Assembly: GCA_026003755.1 (NCBI GenBank)
Contig: BPHV01000003.1
Coordinates: 124,001-188,000, forward strand
Direction: 5' to 3'
Length of the DNA: 64,000 nucleotides
From: Candidatus Roseilinea sp.
Lineage (GTDB): Bacteria; Chloroflexota; Anaerolineae; J036; Brachytrichaceae
Position 1 is the first letter of the stretch, and each line of letters begins with the position of its first letter. The position numbers and the translations under genes are program-made. The notes beneath the pieces were generated by a model. It searched no databases, was not told where the DNA came from, and saw only the letters and a program-made list of their open reading frames with translations. This document shows, piece by piece, positions 50,788-62,239 of the stretch.

Positions 50788-53700
50788 CTACGAACAGCCA
50801 GTCGTGCTGCCGCAAGTTTCACACTTCAGGCAGGTCCCATTGCGCACCAGCGTCCATGCGCCACATTCTGGGCATGGGTCGCCTTCATAGCCCTTTAGGC
50901 GCGCGAGCCGCGCCTTCTCGCTGCGGCTGACGTCGGCGGGGATGGCGGTGGCTGCGCCGCTTGGGGTGGCCCGCGAAGCGGCTCGGACGTTGTTGGCGGC
51001 CCTGTGCGCGCCGGCGCGCGTGTGGCCGTTCTGCTGCGCCGTCTCATCGCTGAAGGCGCGGCTGGGCAAGCGCAACTGGGTGGGCGGCACCGCGCGTTCG
51101 CTGATCACTTCTTCGTCGAGATATTCCGGCTCAGGCACCTCCGACGTCGCGCCGACGTGGGCCAAGTCTTCGCGACCGAGATAGGTGATGGCCAGCTCGC
51201 GGAAGATGTAGTCAATCACGCTGGTGGCCATCTTGATGTGATCGTTGCCGGTGACGACGCCGGACGGCTCGAACTTAGTGAACACGAACTGATCCACGAA
51301 CTCATCGAGCGGCACGCCGTATTGCAGGCCGAGCGACACGGCAATGGCGAAACAGTTGAGCAAACTGCGGAAGCCGGCGCCTTCTTTGTGCATGTCAATG
51401 AAGATCTCACCGAGCGTGCCGTCTTCGTATTCGCCGGTGCGCAGGAAGATGCTCTGGCCGCCGATCTTGGCCTTTTGTGTGTAGCCGGCGCGCCGGTTGG
51501 GCAGGCGACGTTGCTTGGCCAGATAGCGCACGACGACTTTTTCGATCACCTGCTGTTGCTGCGGCGGCACCGGCAATTGCTGACTCGCCTCGCTCACCAA
51601 CTCGGCGGCGGCTTCTTCCTCCGCGTCGCTGCTCGTGTTCAACGGCTGGCTGAGCTTCGATCCATCGCGATAAAGCGCATTGGCCTTGGTGCCGACTTGC
51701 CAGGACAACATGTAGGCGTTCGCCACATCTTCGACTGTGGCCTCATGGGGCAGGTTGATCGTCTTGCTGATGGCGCCGCTGAGGAACGGCTGAGCGGCGG
51801 CCATCATCAGGATGTGCCCCTCAGGAGATATGAAGCGCTTGCCGTACTTGCCGCACTTGTTAGCGCAGTCGAACACCGGCAAGTGTTCGGCCTTCAGGTG
51901 CGGCGCGCCCTCCAGGGTCATGGTGCCGCACACGTAGTCGTTGGCCGCGCTGATCTCGGCTTTGTTGAAGCCGAGCGCCTGCAACATGTTGAACTTGTAG
52001 TCGTTCAATTGCGCATCGCTGAAGCCGAGGACCTTCCTGCAGAAGTCTTCGCCCAGCGTCCACTTGTTGAAGGCAAACTGAATCTCAAAGGCTGTGGCCA
52101 GCGCCGCCTCGACTTTGGCCAACGCTTCGTCGGTGAAGCCGCGCGCCTTGAGCGACTCGGGGTTGATGAACGGGCATCCGACCAGGGTGCCATGTCCGAC
52201 GGCGTATTTCACGATGTCCTCGATCTGCGCCTCGCTGTAGCCCAGCCGGCGCAGCGCCGGCGGCACGCTCTGGTTGACGATCTTGAAGTAACCGCCGCCG
52301 GCCAGTTTCTTGAACTTCACCAGCGCGAAGTCCGGCTCGATACCGGTGGTGTCGCAGTCCATCACTAACCCGATCGTGCCCGTAGGAGCGATTACCGTCA
52401 CCTGCGCGTTGCGATAGCCATACTGCTCGCCCAGTGCCAGCATCCGGTCGGCATCCTCGCGCGCGGCCTTCAGCAGGTCGGGCGGACAATGCGCGGGGTC
52501 GATGCCCATCGGCGGGATGCTCAAGCCCTCATACTCTCCCGCCGGCGCGTTGTAGGCCGCGCGGCGATGGTTGCGAATCACCCGCAGCATGTGTTCGCGG
52601 TTGCGCGCATAGCCGGGAAACGGCCCCAGCTCGGCAGCCATTTCTGCGCTGGTCGCGTAGGCGTGGCAGTGCATGATGGCGGTCAGCGCGCCGGCGATGG
52701 CGCGCCCACGTTCACTGTCGTACGGCACGCCCATCACCATCAACAGCGCGCCCAGATTGGCGTAGCCCAGGCCCAACGTGCGGAATTCGTAGCTCAGCTC
52801 GGCCACGCGCCGGCTGGGGAACTGGGCCATCAGCACGCTGATCTCCAGCACGATCGTCCATAGCCGGACGGCGTGGCGATAGGCTTCGATGTCGAACCTG
52901 CCGCTTTCGACGTCGTAGAAACGCATCAGGTTCAGCGAGGCTAGGTTGCAGGCCGTGTCGTCCAGGAACATGTACTCCGAGCAGTTGTGCACCACGATGC
53001 CGTTGGCCACGAAGTGATTTGTGTCTGGCTCGGTCAGGTCATATACCGGCTCGACCCCTAGATATTCCAGGCTGTCCACTTGGTCGAACATCCGGTCTGG
53101 ATACGCGCCTACCTCACGATTGAGCTCAGCCAGGCGATCAGCTTTATCGCTGCCGGGGATGAAGCCGATCTCCTGCTCGAAGCGCAGCCGCGAACTCCGG
53201 CTAATGCGCAAACTGTGCATCTGTTTGACGGGGTACTCGCGCACACCGCCTTGCCCGTCCGGCATCAGCGTCGTCATCTGATCGGCCGTCCGCCGGTTGC
53301 GATATAGCTTGCTCTTGATGCCGAAGGCCAGCAGCATCAACTGCACCTGGCGCAGCAGGGGTTCGCTTGTGCTGTCCAGCGAGACATATTGGGACTTCGC
53401 GCCGTAGTTGGCCACCGTGCCGTCGGCGGTGAACAAACCGCGCAACAAGGCAGCCATGGACTGCCGATCCAGGCGAAAGGCCTCAGGCGTGAACTGCTTG
53501 TGCGCACTGCCCGCATCCAGGACCGCGAAGCGCTCGGCTTGCTCGACGATGACACGCGATGCAGTCGCTACGCGGAGCGTTCCCTGTGGTTGGTTGATGT
53601 GTGTGTCACGGCGTGAGCGCCCGTCCAGGGCATGCGCCGCTTTGTAGGCCGTAACTCCCGCATGAATGCGCTCGGCAACGCGCATCTCTTCGGGCGCAAG

Positions 53701-55506
53701 CGTCACTATAGCTGTCTTCTGCTCACCCATCAGACAGCCATCCCCAATGAGCATCCCGATGAATTCAGCCAACCGCTCGTCGAGGCTCACCTGGCCGAAT
53801 CGAGGCGCGGCCAGCGCAACGAGGTCATCCTTGGTCAGCTCCGCTGCTGGCACATCGCCGCGGTTGATCGTGTAGACCCGATGGTCGGCGGTGAGTTTGA
53901 CCTCATAGCCGCAGCGCGTGCGCAGACGATACACCGGCTTGTAACCGGTGCAGAAAGCTGGCTGCACCGGGTGCAACTGCCCATCGCCGCCCAATACATC
54001 GAAGGGACGATCGAGCAGCGTATCAATCCGGCGCAGGCCCTGCCCGGTTGCAACCAATGTGTCCCCGGCGACACAGGGATTGCTGCCGCGGATTTCGCCA
54101 TCCGCCGGACAGGTGTGCCACTCGTTGATGGTGGTGTGGTACTGGATGCCCGGGTCGGCGCAGTGCCAGGCCGCTTCGGCGATCTTGCGCCACAGCTCAC
54201 GCGCCTTCACCATGCGCTTGGGCTTGGGCGCGCGGCCTTCTTTCTTCGCCTTCTCGATCTCCGTGCGCCAGATCAGCCCCCATTCCTTGTCCTCGATCAC
54301 CGCCCGCATGAATTCATTGGTGACGCGCACGCTGTTATTGCTGTTCTGGCCGCTGACGGTCGCATAGGCTTCGCTGTTCCAGTCGGTGTCGTATTCTGGG
54401 AAGTGGATGCTGGTGTACCCCTGCTGCGCAAACTGGATGACGCGCTCGATGTAGTTTTGTGGGATCAGGGCGCGGCGCGCCTCGGCGATCGCCTGCGCCA
54501 GCTTGGTGTTCTGTTTGCGGTCGAAGCGCGTCGCCGGGTCTTCCCATTCGTGGCAAGCCCGCATGATGGCGTTCAGGTGCTTGTTGTTGAGCTTGCTGCC
54601 GGTCACCAGCGATGCCACTTTCTGCTCTTCGATCACCTTCCAGTCAATGAAGGCTTCGATGTCGGGGTGATCCACGTCCAGGATGACCATCTTGGCCGCG
54701 CGGCGCGTGGTGCCGCCGCTCTTGATCGCGCCGGCGGCGCGGTCGCCGATCTTGAGGAAGCTCATCAGTCCGGATGACTTGCCGCCCCCGCTCAGCGGCT
54801 CGTTCTCGGCGCGCAGCTTGGAGAAATTGGTGCCCGTGCCGCTGCCGTATTTGAAGATGCGCGCCTCGCGCACCCACAGGTCCATGATGCCGCCCTCGTT
54901 GACCAGGTCGTCCTCGATGGACTGAATAAAGCATGCGTGCGGCTGTGGGCGGGTGTAAGCATCCTCGGAGCGCTTCGCCTTGCCGGTGTGCGGGTCTACG
55001 TAATAGTGCCCCTGCGACGGGCCGGTGATGCCGTAAGCCCAGTTCAAGCCGGTGTTGAACCACTGCGGGCTGTTCGGCGCGGCCATCTGCTTGGCCAGCA
55101 TGTAGCACAGCTCGTCATAGAAAGCGCGAGCGTCGGCTTCGGTGTCGAAGTATTTGTGCTTCCACCCCCAGTAGGTCCAGCACCCGGCCATGCGGTTGAA
55201 CACCTGCCTGCTATCGCGTTCACCGTGGTCGAGCGTTGCGCCTTTGGCTGGCACGCTGCGCTGCAACCAATCGGGTACCCCACGTTCACGCACGCGCACC
55301 GTGGCGTTGGGCACGCCTGCCTTCCGAAAGTACTTTTGCGCCAGGATGTCGGTGGCCACCTGCGAAAAGTGCTCCGGCACATCAATATCGTGCATCTCGA
55401 ACACCGCCGAGCCGTCGGGATTGCGAATGACGGAACTACGCTTAACGAACTGGATGTCTGCGTATGGGCTCTCGCCGGCTCGGGTAAATCGTCGTGTGAT
55501 CTTCAT
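50788..55506 (-). CDS. nrdJ: Adenosylcobalamin-dependent ribonucleotide reductase with intein
   Basis: Class II reductase making dNTPs with adenosylcobalamin as radical source. The precursor is 1572 residues; the spliced host would be 1208, the length of the long NrdJ form. Conserved blocks: [31 protein letters not shown]-type sequence after the intein ([20 protein letters not shown]), [20 protein letters not shown] and a C-terminal zinc-binding tail ([18 protein letters not shown]). The intein (residues 478-841) interrupts GSNP/CSEYMF. It follows nrdR by 31 bp on the same strand, an operon with its own regulator. The B12 operon lies 4 kb downstream. Confidence 0.96.
52984..54075 (-). mobile_element. 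Intein with LAGLIDADG homing endonuclease in NrdJ
   Basis: A 364-residue protein-splicing element encoded in frame. It begins with Cys1 ([20 protein letters not shown], block A), has TADHRVY (block B, with the conserved His), a DOD endonuclease with [12 protein letters not shown] and [10 protein letters not shown], block F ([20 protein letters not shown]) and ends VVHN before Cys+1 of the host. All splicing residues are present, so splicing should work. The insertion point is the conserved active-region GSNP^C of ribonucleotide reductase, a known intein site. Confidence 0.95.
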
Positions 55507-55990: not shown

Positions 55991-56002
55991 GACTCATGCG
56001 TG

Positions 56003-56043
56003 CCATATCTGGCGTTAGAACATTTGCTCTGCCCCATATATAG
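56003..56043. promoter_or_regulatory. Candidate pair of NrdR boxes
   Basis: On the minus strand CTATATATGG (56043-56034) fits the NrdR-box core CWATATATWG at 9 of 10 positions. A weaker copy CCAGATATGG (56012-56003) is placed exactly 31 bp away, the three-turn spacing typical of NrdR box pairs. They lie between the promoter and the nrdR start. Confidence 0.5.
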
Positions 56044-56059
56044 CCGAACGGGGACGTTA

Positions 56060-56088
56060 ATTCTAAGAACCCATTCGCTCAAAGTCAA
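56060..56088 (-). promoter_or_regulatory. Promoter of nrdR-nrdJ
   Basis: TTGACT (56088-56083), 17 bp, TAGAAT (56065-56060): one mismatch per hexamer to consensus. The first NrdR-like box lies just downstream of the expected start point. Confidence 0.6.
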
Positions 56089-56210
56089 CGAGGGACGGGA
56101 AATTTAAGGTTGACGACAGGTCGTCCGAAGGGCGACAGGGTGACCGCGTGCAGGCGGATCACCCCGTCGCTGCCATGGATGAACGCCGAGGTCGCCTCGA
56201 CGTGCTCAAG

Positions 56211-57371
56211 CTATCGCCGTCGCAAGAAAGAAGGAAGCTCCAGGTTATCGGGGTCGAATTGAGCAGCGCGGGCCAGCGAAGGCTCGGCCTCGCTGCGCGA
56301 GGCGTCTGTGTTGGGTGAGGACGACGCGTAACTGGCTGCGGCGGTCCGCATTGCTGCGCTGCTTGGGCGGATCATCCGGCGCGGGACGTTGCCCTGGTGG
56401 TCGAAGCCGGTGGCGATCACCGTGATGCGCACTTGATCTTTCATATTCTCGTCCACCACTGCGCCGAAGATCACATTGCAGTCGGGGTGGGCCGCCGACT
56501 TGATAATCATGGCTGCCTCGTTCACCTCGAACAGGCTGAGATCTGGGCCGCCGGTGATGTTGAAGAGAATACCGCGCGCGCCGTCAATGGTCACATCCAG
56601 CAGGTTAGACGTAATCGCTTGCTCGGCCGCCGCGCGCGCCCGCCCTTCGCCGCTGGCCGTGCCCACTGCCATGAGCGCGGCGCCTCCCTCGGACATGATC
56701 GTGCGCACATCCGCAAAGTCGAGGTTGATCAGCCCAGGGACGGTGATCACCTCGCTGATGCCCTGGATGCCCTGACGCAACACGTCATCGGCTGTGCGGA
56801 AGGCTTGTTGCAGGGTGGCCTTTTGGCCGACGATGTCCAGCAAGCGGTCGTTAGGGATGACGATCAACGTGTCCACGTGCTCCTTAAGCCGTTCGATGCC
56901 GGCCTCAGCCGTGCGCATGCGCGGCGTCCCCTCGAACGAGAAAGGCTTGGTCACTACGCCGATGGTGAGCGCGTTCAGCTCTTTGGCGATGCGCGCGATG
57001 ACGGGCGCTGCGCCGGTGCCCGTGCCACCGCCCATGCCGCATGTGATGAAGACCATGTCGGCTCCCTTGAGCAAGCTGTAAATCTCATCGGCCGACTCTT
57101 CCGCGGCTTTCTCACCAATCTCGGCGTTGCTCCCTGCGCCGAGGCCGCGCGTCACCTTCTCGCCGATGCGCACGCGAATGGGCGCATGGCTGAGCATCAG
57201 GGCTTGCTGGTCGGTGTTGACGGCGATGAACTCGACGCCGGCGAGGCCCTCGGCGATCATCCGATTGACCGCATTTTGACCGCCGCCGCCGACGCCAACG
57301 ACTTTGATTTGAGCAGGTGACTCGGCACGCATGTCCGTCCAATGCTCTTCTGGTTGTAGATTCATAGGCAT
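56211..57371 (-). CDS. ftsZ: Cell division protein FtsZ
   Basis: Tubulin-like GTPase forming the Z-ring. The 386-residue protein has the nucleotide-binding start [16 protein letters not shown], the tubulin signature GGGTGTG at residues 114-120, NTDQQAL and the T7-loop region [15 protein letters not shown]. The C-terminal peptide is [10 protein letters not shown], which fits the conserved FtsZ tail that binds FtsA. GGAGG lies 5 nt before the chosen ATG. A promoter with embedded DnaA boxes precedes it. Confidence 0.98.
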
Positions 57372-57424
57372 GCTTCCTCCGTTACTGCTGCAAATGTTCC
57401 CGCTCGCTCACAAGTAGTTCACAG

Positions 57425-57466
57425 ATTCTATGCTGCTTATCCACAGTGTCAAGCGGTTTATCCACA
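57425..57466 (-). promoter_or_regulatory. ftsZ promoter overlapped by two perfect DnaA boxes
   Basis: On the minus strand TTGACA (57452-57447), 16 bp, TAGAAT (57430-57425). Two exact TTATCCACA boxes (plus-strand reading) lie at 57437-57445, inside the spacer, and 57458-57466, 5 bp upstream of the -35. Their starts are 21 bp apart, two helical turns. DnaA bound here would occupy the promoter directly. Confidence 0.75.
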
Positions 57467-57588
57467 GCTTTTCCAAACATCGAGAGTTTTAAGCCAGGGA
57501 ATGCCCGGGTTATCCTGTGCGCGCGCGATGTCGCGCGCAGCCGGCCCGGACACTCCACGCAACGCGGTCGAAAGGACCGCCCTTCAGT

Positions 57589-58818
57589 TCAATCCGGCAA
57601 CAAATTCCTCAACCACCCTGGCAAGTCCAAGCGAGGGTTGAAGCGTCGGCGTTTGCTAGGCTGCGCAGCTACGCCCTGTAATCCCCAATGCAGCATTCCA
57701 ACCGCGGTCGAGAAGGCCGGAGACTGCAGAGCGTCCACCAAGCCGTACAAATTCATCGGGCGCGTCAAGCGAACCGGTCGCCCCGTCGTCTCGCGCGCCG
57801 ATTCCCTCAAGCCTGGCAAGAGCGAACCACCTCCTGTGATCACGAGTCCGGCCGGCAACAGGCCGTCATAACCGCTGCGCTTGATCTCCTGTTCAATCAG
57901 GCTGAACAGCTCGTCGGCGCGGGCGCGTAGAATCTCTGCGGCCTCGCGCCTGGAGACGCGCACGAGCGGCTCATCACCAAACCCCTGAACGTCGCAAACC
58001 TGATCGCCCGGCACATCGGGCGGATGGGCGTGTCCGTAGTGCACTTTCAAGTGCTCGGCGGCGTCCATCGGCAGGCGCAGCACCTGAGCCAGGTCGCTGG
58101 TGAAGTGCGCCCCGCCCACCTCAAGCACTTTGGTATGCCATGCCGATCCGTCAATAAACATGGCGATGCCCGTAGTGCCGCCACCAATATCCACCAATAC
58201 TGCGCCCATCTCGCGTTCGGTCGGGGTGAGCACGGCCTCGGCTGAAGCCAGCGTTGAGAGCACGAACTCGCTCACGTCCACGCCGGCCATGTGCGCGCAC
58301 TTGAGCAGGTTCTGCATCGCGGTCGTCGCACAGGTGATGATGTGGGCCTGCGCCTCCAGCCGGAAGCCCAGCATACCGATCGGGTTGCGTACGCCATCCT
58401 GATCATCCACTCGGAAGTGCCGCGGGATCACGTGCAGGATCTCGCGGTTGTTCGGCACGGCGATGGCTTGCGCCGATTCCAGGCAACGATTGATGTCGTC
58501 GAACGACACGCCCTGGTCGCCTCGGCCGATGGCGACTGCGCCCTGGCTGTTCTGCGAGGCGATATGGTTGCCGCTGATGGACATGAGCACGTGCGATGCC
58601 TTCACCCCCGAGGAGGCTTGCGCGCCGGCCAACGCCTCCTTCAGGCACGCTGTGGCGTCGCTCACGTTGATGATTTGGCCGCGCCGGATGCCGCGAGCGA
58701 CCGTCATACCTACGCCGATGATGGTGAAGCCGACCTCGTTGTCAGCGGCCTCGCCCACCAGCGCCACGACCTTCGTGCTGCCCACGTCCAAAACGGTGAT
58801 CGTCTTTGGTTCTGCCAT
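57589..58818 (-). CDS. ftsA: Cell division protein FtsA
   Basis: Actin-like protein tethering FtsZ to the membrane. The 409-residue product begins MAEPKTITVLDVGSTKVVAL, the phosphate-1 block, and has the SHS2 subdomain region (ISGNHIASQNSQGAVAIG), VLVDIGGGTTGIAMFIDGS (phosphate-2) and LVITGGGSLLPGL (adenosine). The C-terminal amphipathic segment LDLPGWLRNLLPD fits the membrane-targeting helix. A longer upstream frame reaches into repeat sequence and was rejected. Confidence 0.97.
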   Translation of the reverse strand: MAEPKTITVLDVGSTKVVALVGEAADNEVGFTIIGVGMTVARGIRRGQIINVSDATACLKEALAGAQASSGVKASHVLMSISGNHIASQNSQGAVAIGRGDQGVSFDDINRCLESAQAIAVPNNREILHVIPRHFRVDDQDGVRNPIGMLGFRLEAQAHIITCATTAMQNLLKCAHMAGVDVSEFVLSTLASAEAVLTPTEREMGAVLVDIGGGTTGIAMFIDGSAWHTKVLEVGGAHFTSDLAQVLRLPMDAAEHLKVHYGHAHPPDVPGDQVCDVQGFGDEPLVRVSRREAAEILRARADELFSLIEQEIKRSGYDGLLPAGLVITGGGSLLPGLRESARETTGRPVRLTRPMNLYGLVDALQSPAFSTAVGMLHWGLQGVAAQPSKRRRFNPRLDLPGWLRNLLPD

Positions 58819-58825
58819 GATTTCC

Positions 58826-58894
58826 GAGTCTGCAGATTGGAGATTAGAACCAGAGATTGAAGTGACCAATCTCTAATCTCTAATCCCTCCAATC
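58826..58894. repeat. Heptamer repeat cluster between ftsQ and ftsA, inverted
   Basis: Left part reads AGATTGGAGATTAGA and the right part carries the inverse type CAATCTCTAATCTCTAATC, so the whole can fold back. The units are the same heptamers (GATTAGA/GATTGGA) that frame the S23-like gene at 61700-62239. No gene lies inside. It looks like the same repeat unit without cargo. Confidence 0.75.
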
Positions 58895-59692
58895 TCATTG
58901 GACGATGTAGTACGGCGCCTCCACGAAACGCACATCCAACACTCGCGCTTCGATGCCCTGATCCACCAATTGCTGTTGCAACGCACGCGCCAGGCGCAAC
59001 TTGTCGCTCATCGCGCCGTCATAGGGGGCATCGCCCAGCCGCACGCGCCATTTGCGATCGTTGACCCACATCAGGCCAAACTGCGACGAGTACGCATAGC
59101 GCCTCACGTTGGGTTGCGCAGCGATCAGCTCGTTCAGGGCGCGCAACAGGCGCGGATCGAGCCGGCTGCCCAGCGGCGGCAGCGCGCCATCCTCGACGCG
59201 GATGAAGAGCTGGGCCGGCATGTCTGCCTGCGCGACTTGCACCCTGCCTTCGAGGTCGTTCCATACCTGGCCGTCCCGGCTTTGCCACAACGCCATTGGG
59301 CGCGCCGGCTGAACGGTGATCACGCACTGGACGCGCCACACCCAACGACACGTGACCGACGCCGCCTCCACGCCCGGCAGGTCATCCACTGCCTGAGCCG
59401 CTGCGTCCAGGTTGGCGAAGTGGAAGTGTTCGCCCTGTAGCCCGCTGGCGCCGATAATCGCTTCGACCGGCACGCCGTCGTTGTTCTGCACCGCGATGTC
59501 GCCGATGCGCCAACTCTCGCCGCTATACCACTGCGCGCCGAGCATCGCTCCGGCGACGCATACGACAGCAGCGAGCGTCCGCGACCGGCGCGCCCAGCGC
59601 CGCTCGGCTCGCTGCGCCAGCGCCACATCGAAGCGCGTCCACGGCGTCGGCTTGCGGTCTGGCGGGGGGCGGTAGTTCAACATCTCCTTCAT
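58895..59692 (-). CDS. ftsQ: Cell division protein FtsQ
   Basis: Bitopic divisome protein of 265 residues: basic cytoplasmic N-terminus, one membrane helix (RTLAAVVCVAGAMLGAQWYS near residues 38-57), a POTRA domain (WRIGDIAVQNNDGVPVEAII, and NLDAAAQAVDDLPGVEAASV) and the FtsQ beta domain with its C-terminal VRFVEAPYYIVQ. It starts at the ATGA shared with the ddl stop. It is separated from ftsA by a heptamer repeat cluster. Confidence 0.92.
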   Translation of the reverse strand: MKEMLNYRPPPDRKPTPWTRFDVALAQRAERRWARRSRTLAAVVCVAGAMLGAQWYSGESWRIGDIAVQNNDGVPVEAIIGASGLQGEHFHFANLDAAAQAVDDLPGVEAASVTCRWVWRVQCVITVQPARPMALWQSRDGQVWNDLEGRVQVAQADMPAQLFIRVEDGALPPLGSRLDPRLLRALNELIAAQPNVRRYAYSSQFGLMWVNDRKWRVRLGDAPYDGAMSDKLRLARALQQQLVDQGIEARVLDVRFVEAPYYIVQ

Positions 59693-61695: not shown

Positions 61696-61760
61696 GGGAT
61701 TAGAGATTAGAGATTAGAGATTGGAGATTGGAGGTTGGAGGTTGGAGGTTGGAGGTTGGA
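61696..61760. repeat. Heptamer tandem repeat, left of the S23-like gene
   Basis: About nine consecutive 7-bp units on the plus strand: GATTAGA three times, GATTGGA twice, then GGTTGGA four times. The gene on the minus strand reads into it, so its last residues (TSNLQPPTSNLQSLISNL) are encoded by repeat. The inverse-type array lies at 62253-62324. Confidence 0.9.
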
Positions 61761-62239
61761 TCACTTTTGATCCATGCAATGTCTTTTTCGTCGAAAATCA
61801 AGGCCGATTCGTCCACAGGTCCGGCGATGTATGGCACTTGTTCCTCACGCAAGGAGGGCTTCGATGTTTTTGCGTCACGCTTCTGCATCTTCAGGCTATT
61901 TGCGAATTGATTGATTTGGCGAGCCAGATTAGTGAGCGCATTCGAATAATCTTGCGCGACATTGCTTTGCAGCAAACCCCGATGAGCCGCTCGGTTCAGC
62001 CAATACTTCGTTTCGAACAAGCTGCCGCGCGCGTAATAGAGAAACTGTAGCTTTTCGCCGAAGTTGAATCGGCCGAAAGACTCAGCAATATTCGCTCCAA
62101 TCGAGTCCGTTGCTCGTACAAGCTGGCTTCCCAACGCGTCGCGCGCAAAGGCATCCCATTGGACGACATATCGCCAGATCTCATCGGCAATGCTTTCGGC
62201 AGCTCGAAGCACTTTCAAATCTTCCAACGAAGTTCCCAT
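61700..62239 (-). CDS. Four-helix-bundle protein (S23/IVP, Avd-like)
   Basis: A 179-residue member of the 23S-rRNA-intervening-sequence protein family, which also includes the Avd accessory protein of diversity-generating retroelements. Family blocks: LRAAESIADEIWRYVVQWDA, LVRATDSIGANIAESFGRFN, and YYARGSLFETKYWLNRA. AGGAGG 5 nt before the ATG is supplied by the end of the right repeat array. The C-terminal 20 residues come from the left heptamer array. It interrupts murB and murC in the dcw cluster. No reverse transcriptase or variable repeat is seen nearby. Function unknown. Confidence 0.9.
   Translation of the reverse strand: MGTSLEDLKVLRAAESIADEIWRYVVQWDAFARDALGSQLVRATDSIGANIAESFGRFNFGEKLQFLYYARGSLFETKYWLNRAAHRGLLQSNVAQDYSNALTNLARQINQFANSLKMQKRDAKTSKPSLREEQVPYIAGPVDESALIFDEKDIAWIKSDPTSNLQPPTSNLQSLISNL

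Follow-up and report, generated by a model that had tools for sequence, protein, structure and literature searches.

A predicted DnaA operator on the core promoter of ftsZ in a Candidatus Roseilinea genome

The coupling of replication initiation to cell division is a long-standing question, and control of division genes by the replication initiator DnaA is already known from ftsZ in Caulobacter crescentus and ftsL in Bacillus subtilis. In C. crescentus, ftsZ is activated by DnaA, the ADP-bound form having been proposed as the active one, and the ftsZ promoter carries two DnaA boxes (PMC8203912, PMC3193534). In B. subtilis, ftsL is bound by DnaA (reviewed in PMC8203912), and in Escherichia coli, DnaA boxes upstream of ftsZ were later shown to have no effect on ftsZ transcription (reviewed in PMC8203912). 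Direct control of ftsZ by DnaA is well supported only in Caulobacter and has been refuted in E. coli. As DnaA activates ftsZ in the one organism and the ftsZ boxes are irrelevant in the other, the direction of control cannot be assumed for a new case. DnaA sites within or across a core promoter have been described at other E. coli genes: a box inside the promoter spacer of uvrB goes with repression, and at guaB DnaA lowers expression from a site that overlaps the core promoter (PMC6015884, PMC2885671). For E. coli nrdAB, it has been proposed that DnaA-ATP activates at low levels and represses at high levels (reviewed in PMC8203912).

We analyzed a 64,000-nucleotide stretch of a Candidatus Roseilinea genome, hereafter the window, in which an exact-match search found two copies of TTATCCACA directly upstream of ftsZ (Table 1). 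Read on the minus strand, which encodes ftsZ, they are direct repeats of TGTGGATAA spaced 21 bp start to start, a register of about two helical turns. They sit on a sigma70-like promoter, TTGACA-16-TAGAAT, that matches at 11 of 12 positions, and shuffles of the region contain on average 0.3 such sites. The layout in the direction of transcription is TGTGGATAA accgc TTGACA c TGTGGATAA gcagca TAGAAT ctgtgaac, so that the centers of the distal and proximal boxes fall at about -44 and -23 relative to the predicted transcription start, near 57418. The original prediction, of two exact boxes 21 bp apart on a near-consensus promoter just upstream of ftsZ, is borne out by these features, and the interval it gave (57425-57466) runs exactly from the -10 element through the distal box. 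One box lies inside the spacer and the other is 5 bp upstream of the -35 element. A candidate third and weaker site, TGTGAACTA, is located 22 bp downstream of the spacer box, and its TGTGAA core is also found in several genera. Within-genus comparison shows that the ftsZ start codon kept across the genus is the ATG listed in Table 1, not position 57371. The open reading frame upstream of the promoter is, from its position and sequence, presumably ftsA.

Table 1. Features of the ftsZ upstream region, in coordinates of the window
Feature	Position	Strand	Basis
Distal DnaA box TGTGGATAA	57458..57466	-	Exact match; 8/9 columns invariant in eight genus genomes
Proximal DnaA box TGTGGATAA, in -35/-10 spacer	57437..57445	-	Exact match; 8/9 columns invariant
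Candidate third, weak DnaA site TGTGAACTA, at predicted start	57415..57423	-	Seen in the sequence; putative function
-35 element TTGACA	57447..57452	-	Promoter scan; 6/6 columns invariant in genus
-10 element TAGAAT, 16-bp spacer	57425..57430	-	Promoter scan; 5/6 columns invariant
Half-site CTTAAAACTC	57484..57493	-	Resembles palindrome upstream of dnaA in 9/9 genus genomes; putative link
ftsZ coding sequence	56211..57365	-	Translation; genus-conserved start ATG at 57365; GGAGG at 57376-57380
ftsA (presumed), upstream division-cluster gene	57589..58818	-	Position and sequence

This arrangement resembles that of C. crescentus, likewise with a pair of DnaA boxes at the promoter of ftsZ and with a predicted link between the initiator of replication and the protein of the Z ring. 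It differs in that DnaA activates the Caulobacter gene, whereas here a box fills the core spacer, the phylum is unrelated and DnaA binding is predicted. E. coli uvrB and guaB also have a DnaA site that lies in the core promoter or overlaps it, but those are repair and purine genes rather than division genes, and their sites are shared with LexA or PurR. High-affinity boxes next to a promoter are likewise found at E. coli nrdAB, where the target is ribonucleotide reductase rather than ftsZ; the local nrdR-nrdJ genes have a promoter-like site of their own. The E. coli boxes in ftsQA are also upstream of ftsZ but lie inside coding genes, and the B. subtilis case shares DnaA at a division-gene promoter, with ftsL rather than ftsZ as the gene. 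The open literature that we searched contained no paper treating DnaA together with ftsZ for this lineage, which the nearest named ftsZ relatives indicate to be of Chloroflexota type, in keeping with the original supposition that so compact an overlap is undescribed there. It also held no account of a spacer-embedded two-box design, of its conservation across genera or of a paired site at mraZ.

On balance, we favor a reading of this element as an operator through which DnaA acts on the ftsZ promoter, most likely as a repressor that excludes RNA polymerase, perhaps with dual control like that of nrdAB. The two boxes, both of high affinity and on one side of the helix, would be occupied by DnaA, and this occupancy would probably extend to the weak third site at the predicted start. 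DnaA bound in the spacer box would exclude RNA polymerase and thereby repress ftsZ; as the promoter around that box is near consensus in its own right, repression is the effect we consider most likely, with precedents at E. coli uvrB and guaB. ftsZ would be released once free DnaA drops, for example after initiation through DnaA titration or conversion. At low occupancy, the distal box could let DnaA aid RNA polymerase, as proposed for E. coli nrdAB.

The element is conserved in the genus. The box pair, with at most one mismatch per box and with the -35 element between, is present in every one of the eight genus genomes that yielded an ftsZ gene. When these eight genomes were aligned with MAFFT, 16 of the 18 box columns were invariant (mean pair identity 0.97), compared with 34 of the 200 other positions of the ftsZ upstream alignment (mean pair identity 0.57) and 20 of the 73 non-element columns within 30 bp of the element. 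Elsewhere in the family, the layout of -35 element and spacer box is kept in g5 (2/2), g8 (3/3) and g2 (1/4), with different letters between the elements. In G014, two boxes with an 11-bp pitch remain upstream and the spacer box is degenerate, G026 has partial boxes, G011 and G019 keep the promoter without boxes, and the region upstream of ftsZ is rearranged or different in G009, G021, G025, g3 and g6. As several family genomes are without the boxes, this control appears to be dispensable in the lineage. The original prediction, against which a lack of conservation in close relatives would have counted, passes this check: the boxes are kept in close relatives and also in further genera within the family. 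It is thereby partly supported, as regards a conserved DnaA-box operator on the ftsZ promoter, and a direct switching of ftsZ transcription by DnaA, up or down, would be its predicted consequence.

On a tree of ftsZ proteins, whose deep forks are weakly supported, presence of the spacer box requires four changes and is clustered far beyond shuffles. As the box is both clustered on this tree and spread over deep branches, we take it to have been present in the ancestor of the family and lost repeatedly, the weak support of the deep forks applying to this reading as well. The boxes are confined to the family: a box with at most one mismatch lies within 400 bp upstream of ftsZ in only 2 of 30 genomes from other families of the class, one of the 30 having almost no upstream sequence, and in only 2 of 80 named outgroup loci. 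We therefore rejected class-wide conservation of the ftsZ boxes. A search for the composite TTGACWNTGTGGATWA in 396 genomes of the class gave 14 matches within the family, 13 of which, in 13 genomes, are at ftsZ. The 368 genomes outside the family gave nine matches, none at ftsZ. A wider regulon based on these was rejected, since eight of these matches fall within genes and the remaining one is intergenic, just downstream of ftsH.

A second, genus-wide site with DnaA boxes is found at mraZ, with which the division cluster that includes ftsZ begins; mraZ is 17 kb from ftsZ and outside the window. There, an array of TTATCCAAA, TTATCCCCA and TGTGGATAA lies just upstream of the mraZ -35 element (L201:5512-5553; G000:C3:198511-198552). 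In eight genus genomes, a TTGCRA hexamer resembling a -35 element is preceded, at a distance of about 4 bp, by TGTGGATAA, which usually faces TTATCCCCA, and MraZ-type GTGG repeats follow; the array is absent from the other family genera that were checked. The two sites suggest that both ends of the division cluster may respond to DnaA in this genus. A farther-reading proposal, which we regard as possible and hold only tentatively, is that the best DnaA sites of the genome are not at the origin but at two division promoters, those of ftsZ and mraZ, and that DnaA would be a dedicated transcription switch gating the entire division cluster and blocking ftsZ by way of the spacer-embedded box. The presence, in a distant phylum, of a predicted operator whose two conserved boxes hold a fixed place on the core promoter of ftsZ, together with the mraZ site, suggests that replication control has been wired into division more than once in evolution, and that in this poorly studied family the wiring into division control may be direct.

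The mraZ site also bears on the direction of control. DnaA might act chiefly as an activator of ftsZ, as it does in Caulobacter, by binding the distal box in a class II-like position near -44, with the spacer box tuning this effect or being tolerated. The likewise two-box promoter of the DnaA-activated Caulobacter gene fits this alternative, as does the activator-like place of the genus mraZ box, 4 bp ahead of a weak -35 element (TTGCGA); at this weaker promoter the position of the box leaves room for activation at low occupancy. The pattern in G014, with upstream boxes retained and the spacer box degenerate, would also fit an activator role. However, a near-consensus ftsZ promoter should not need an activator, and the spacer box, which would block RNA polymerase, is as well kept as the distal box. 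We consider predominant activation unlikely, while still according it some weight, and repression through the spacer box remains our preferred reading.

We also asked which protein would read the boxes. The genome encodes one DnaA (PF08299 match, E 3.8e-29), whose domain IV aligns to the DNA-binding domain of E. coli DnaA (1J1V) with the box-reading GGRDHTT motif intact. As this is a canonical box-reading helix, the consensus box is its expected target. Recognition of the TGTGGATAA repeats by a regulator other than DnaA could draw on the presence of a second element, CTTAAAAC, which is also upstream of ftsZ and recurs at dnaA. We think it improbable, given that the ftsZ 9-mers are letter-perfect consensus DnaA boxes, that the sole other clustered relaxed sites in the genus are upstream of dnaA, and that the DnaA of this genome has the canonical helix.

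As a separate observation, a palindrome, CTTAAA-N-TTTAAGG, is found upstream of dnaA (G000:C1:492393-492417; L309) in 9/9 genus genomes and almost nowhere else. CTTAAA half-sites also occur upstream of ftsZ (Table 1) and of nrdR, hinting that dnaA, ftsZ and nrdR may share a second regulator.

The ftsZ pair is exceptional within the genome. Shuffles of the window contain a mean of 0.08 exact boxes and never reach two. The 3.34-Mb genome (G000) has 12 exact boxes, for which simple arithmetic predicts about 0.001 pairs within 30 bp, and 49 relaxed TTWTNCACA sites versus 26 for a reversed control. The ftsZ promoter is the only spot with two boxes within 400 bp, whether exact or TTWTNCACA, and holds the only tight same-strand pair. 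Three of the 12 exact boxes are at the two division promoters, ftsZ and mraZ, and the remaining ones are mostly within open reading frames. Across the genus, relaxed direct pairs are found in two places, the ftsZ promoter and the region upstream of dnaA, with one further match in G003, at a contig end, that was not placed.

That the sole tight exact pair of G000 is at ftsZ, that its dnaA region has no box within one mismatch, and that the GC skew of G006 is shallow would be compatible with the boxes being part of a replication origin, or a site of DnaA titration or reactivation, that stands before ftsZ by happenstance. We give this explanation very little credence. The boxes are locked to the -35 and -10 elements across genera, and no oriC-like array of several boxes is present at ftsZ, which has two boxes and one weak site only. 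Another, intergenic array of degenerate TCCACA boxes, conserved in eight genus genomes, lies at 3.163 Mb of the single-contig genome G006 (G006:C1; L295), 420 kb from ftsZ and 860 kb from dnaA; in G000 it corresponds to an array near C2:596.5 kb (L298). The GC-skew transition of G006 is broad and shallow, at about 3.0-3.5 Mb, with the array inside it and ftsZ, at 3.58 Mb, at its edge. Taken together, the dnaA neighborhoods, the GC-skew samples of G006 and the alternative array disfavor an origin at ftsZ. The replication origin is probably elsewhere, with the degenerate array near the GC-skew minimum, far from dnaA, as the candidate, a placement that the shallow skew makes suggestive only. Least probable of all is that the boxes arose by chance or are conserved merely through overlap with a conserved promoter: the spacer-box columns are partly shielded because that box overlaps the promoter, but the distal box lies outside it and is conserved to the same degree, drift is seen in the other columns of the spacer and flanks, and the promoter does not require boxes, as G011 and G019 keep it without them.

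Just downstream of ftsZ are nrdR and nrdJ, separated from it by a 220-bp gap (window 55991-56210). We considered whether DnaA control of ftsZ might reach nrdR-nrdJ and rejected this, as the gap has its own promoter-like site and contains no DnaA box. This site, TTGACT-17-TAGAAT on the minus strand, is preceded by AACCTTAAAT and kept in most genus genomes. Adjoining nrdR and ftsZ is a very large class II-type ribonucleotide reductase open reading frame (50788-55506, minus strand; 1572 aa), which contains a stretch resembling an intein that ends in VHNCS. On the other side, the gap between an ftsQ-like gene and ftsA contains short imperfect repeats (58830-58898), variants of AATCTCTAATC and its complement. 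The division cluster also has an insertion between its murB-like and murC-like genes, a small protein (61700-62239, minus strand) that resembles a four-helix bundle of the S23 type.
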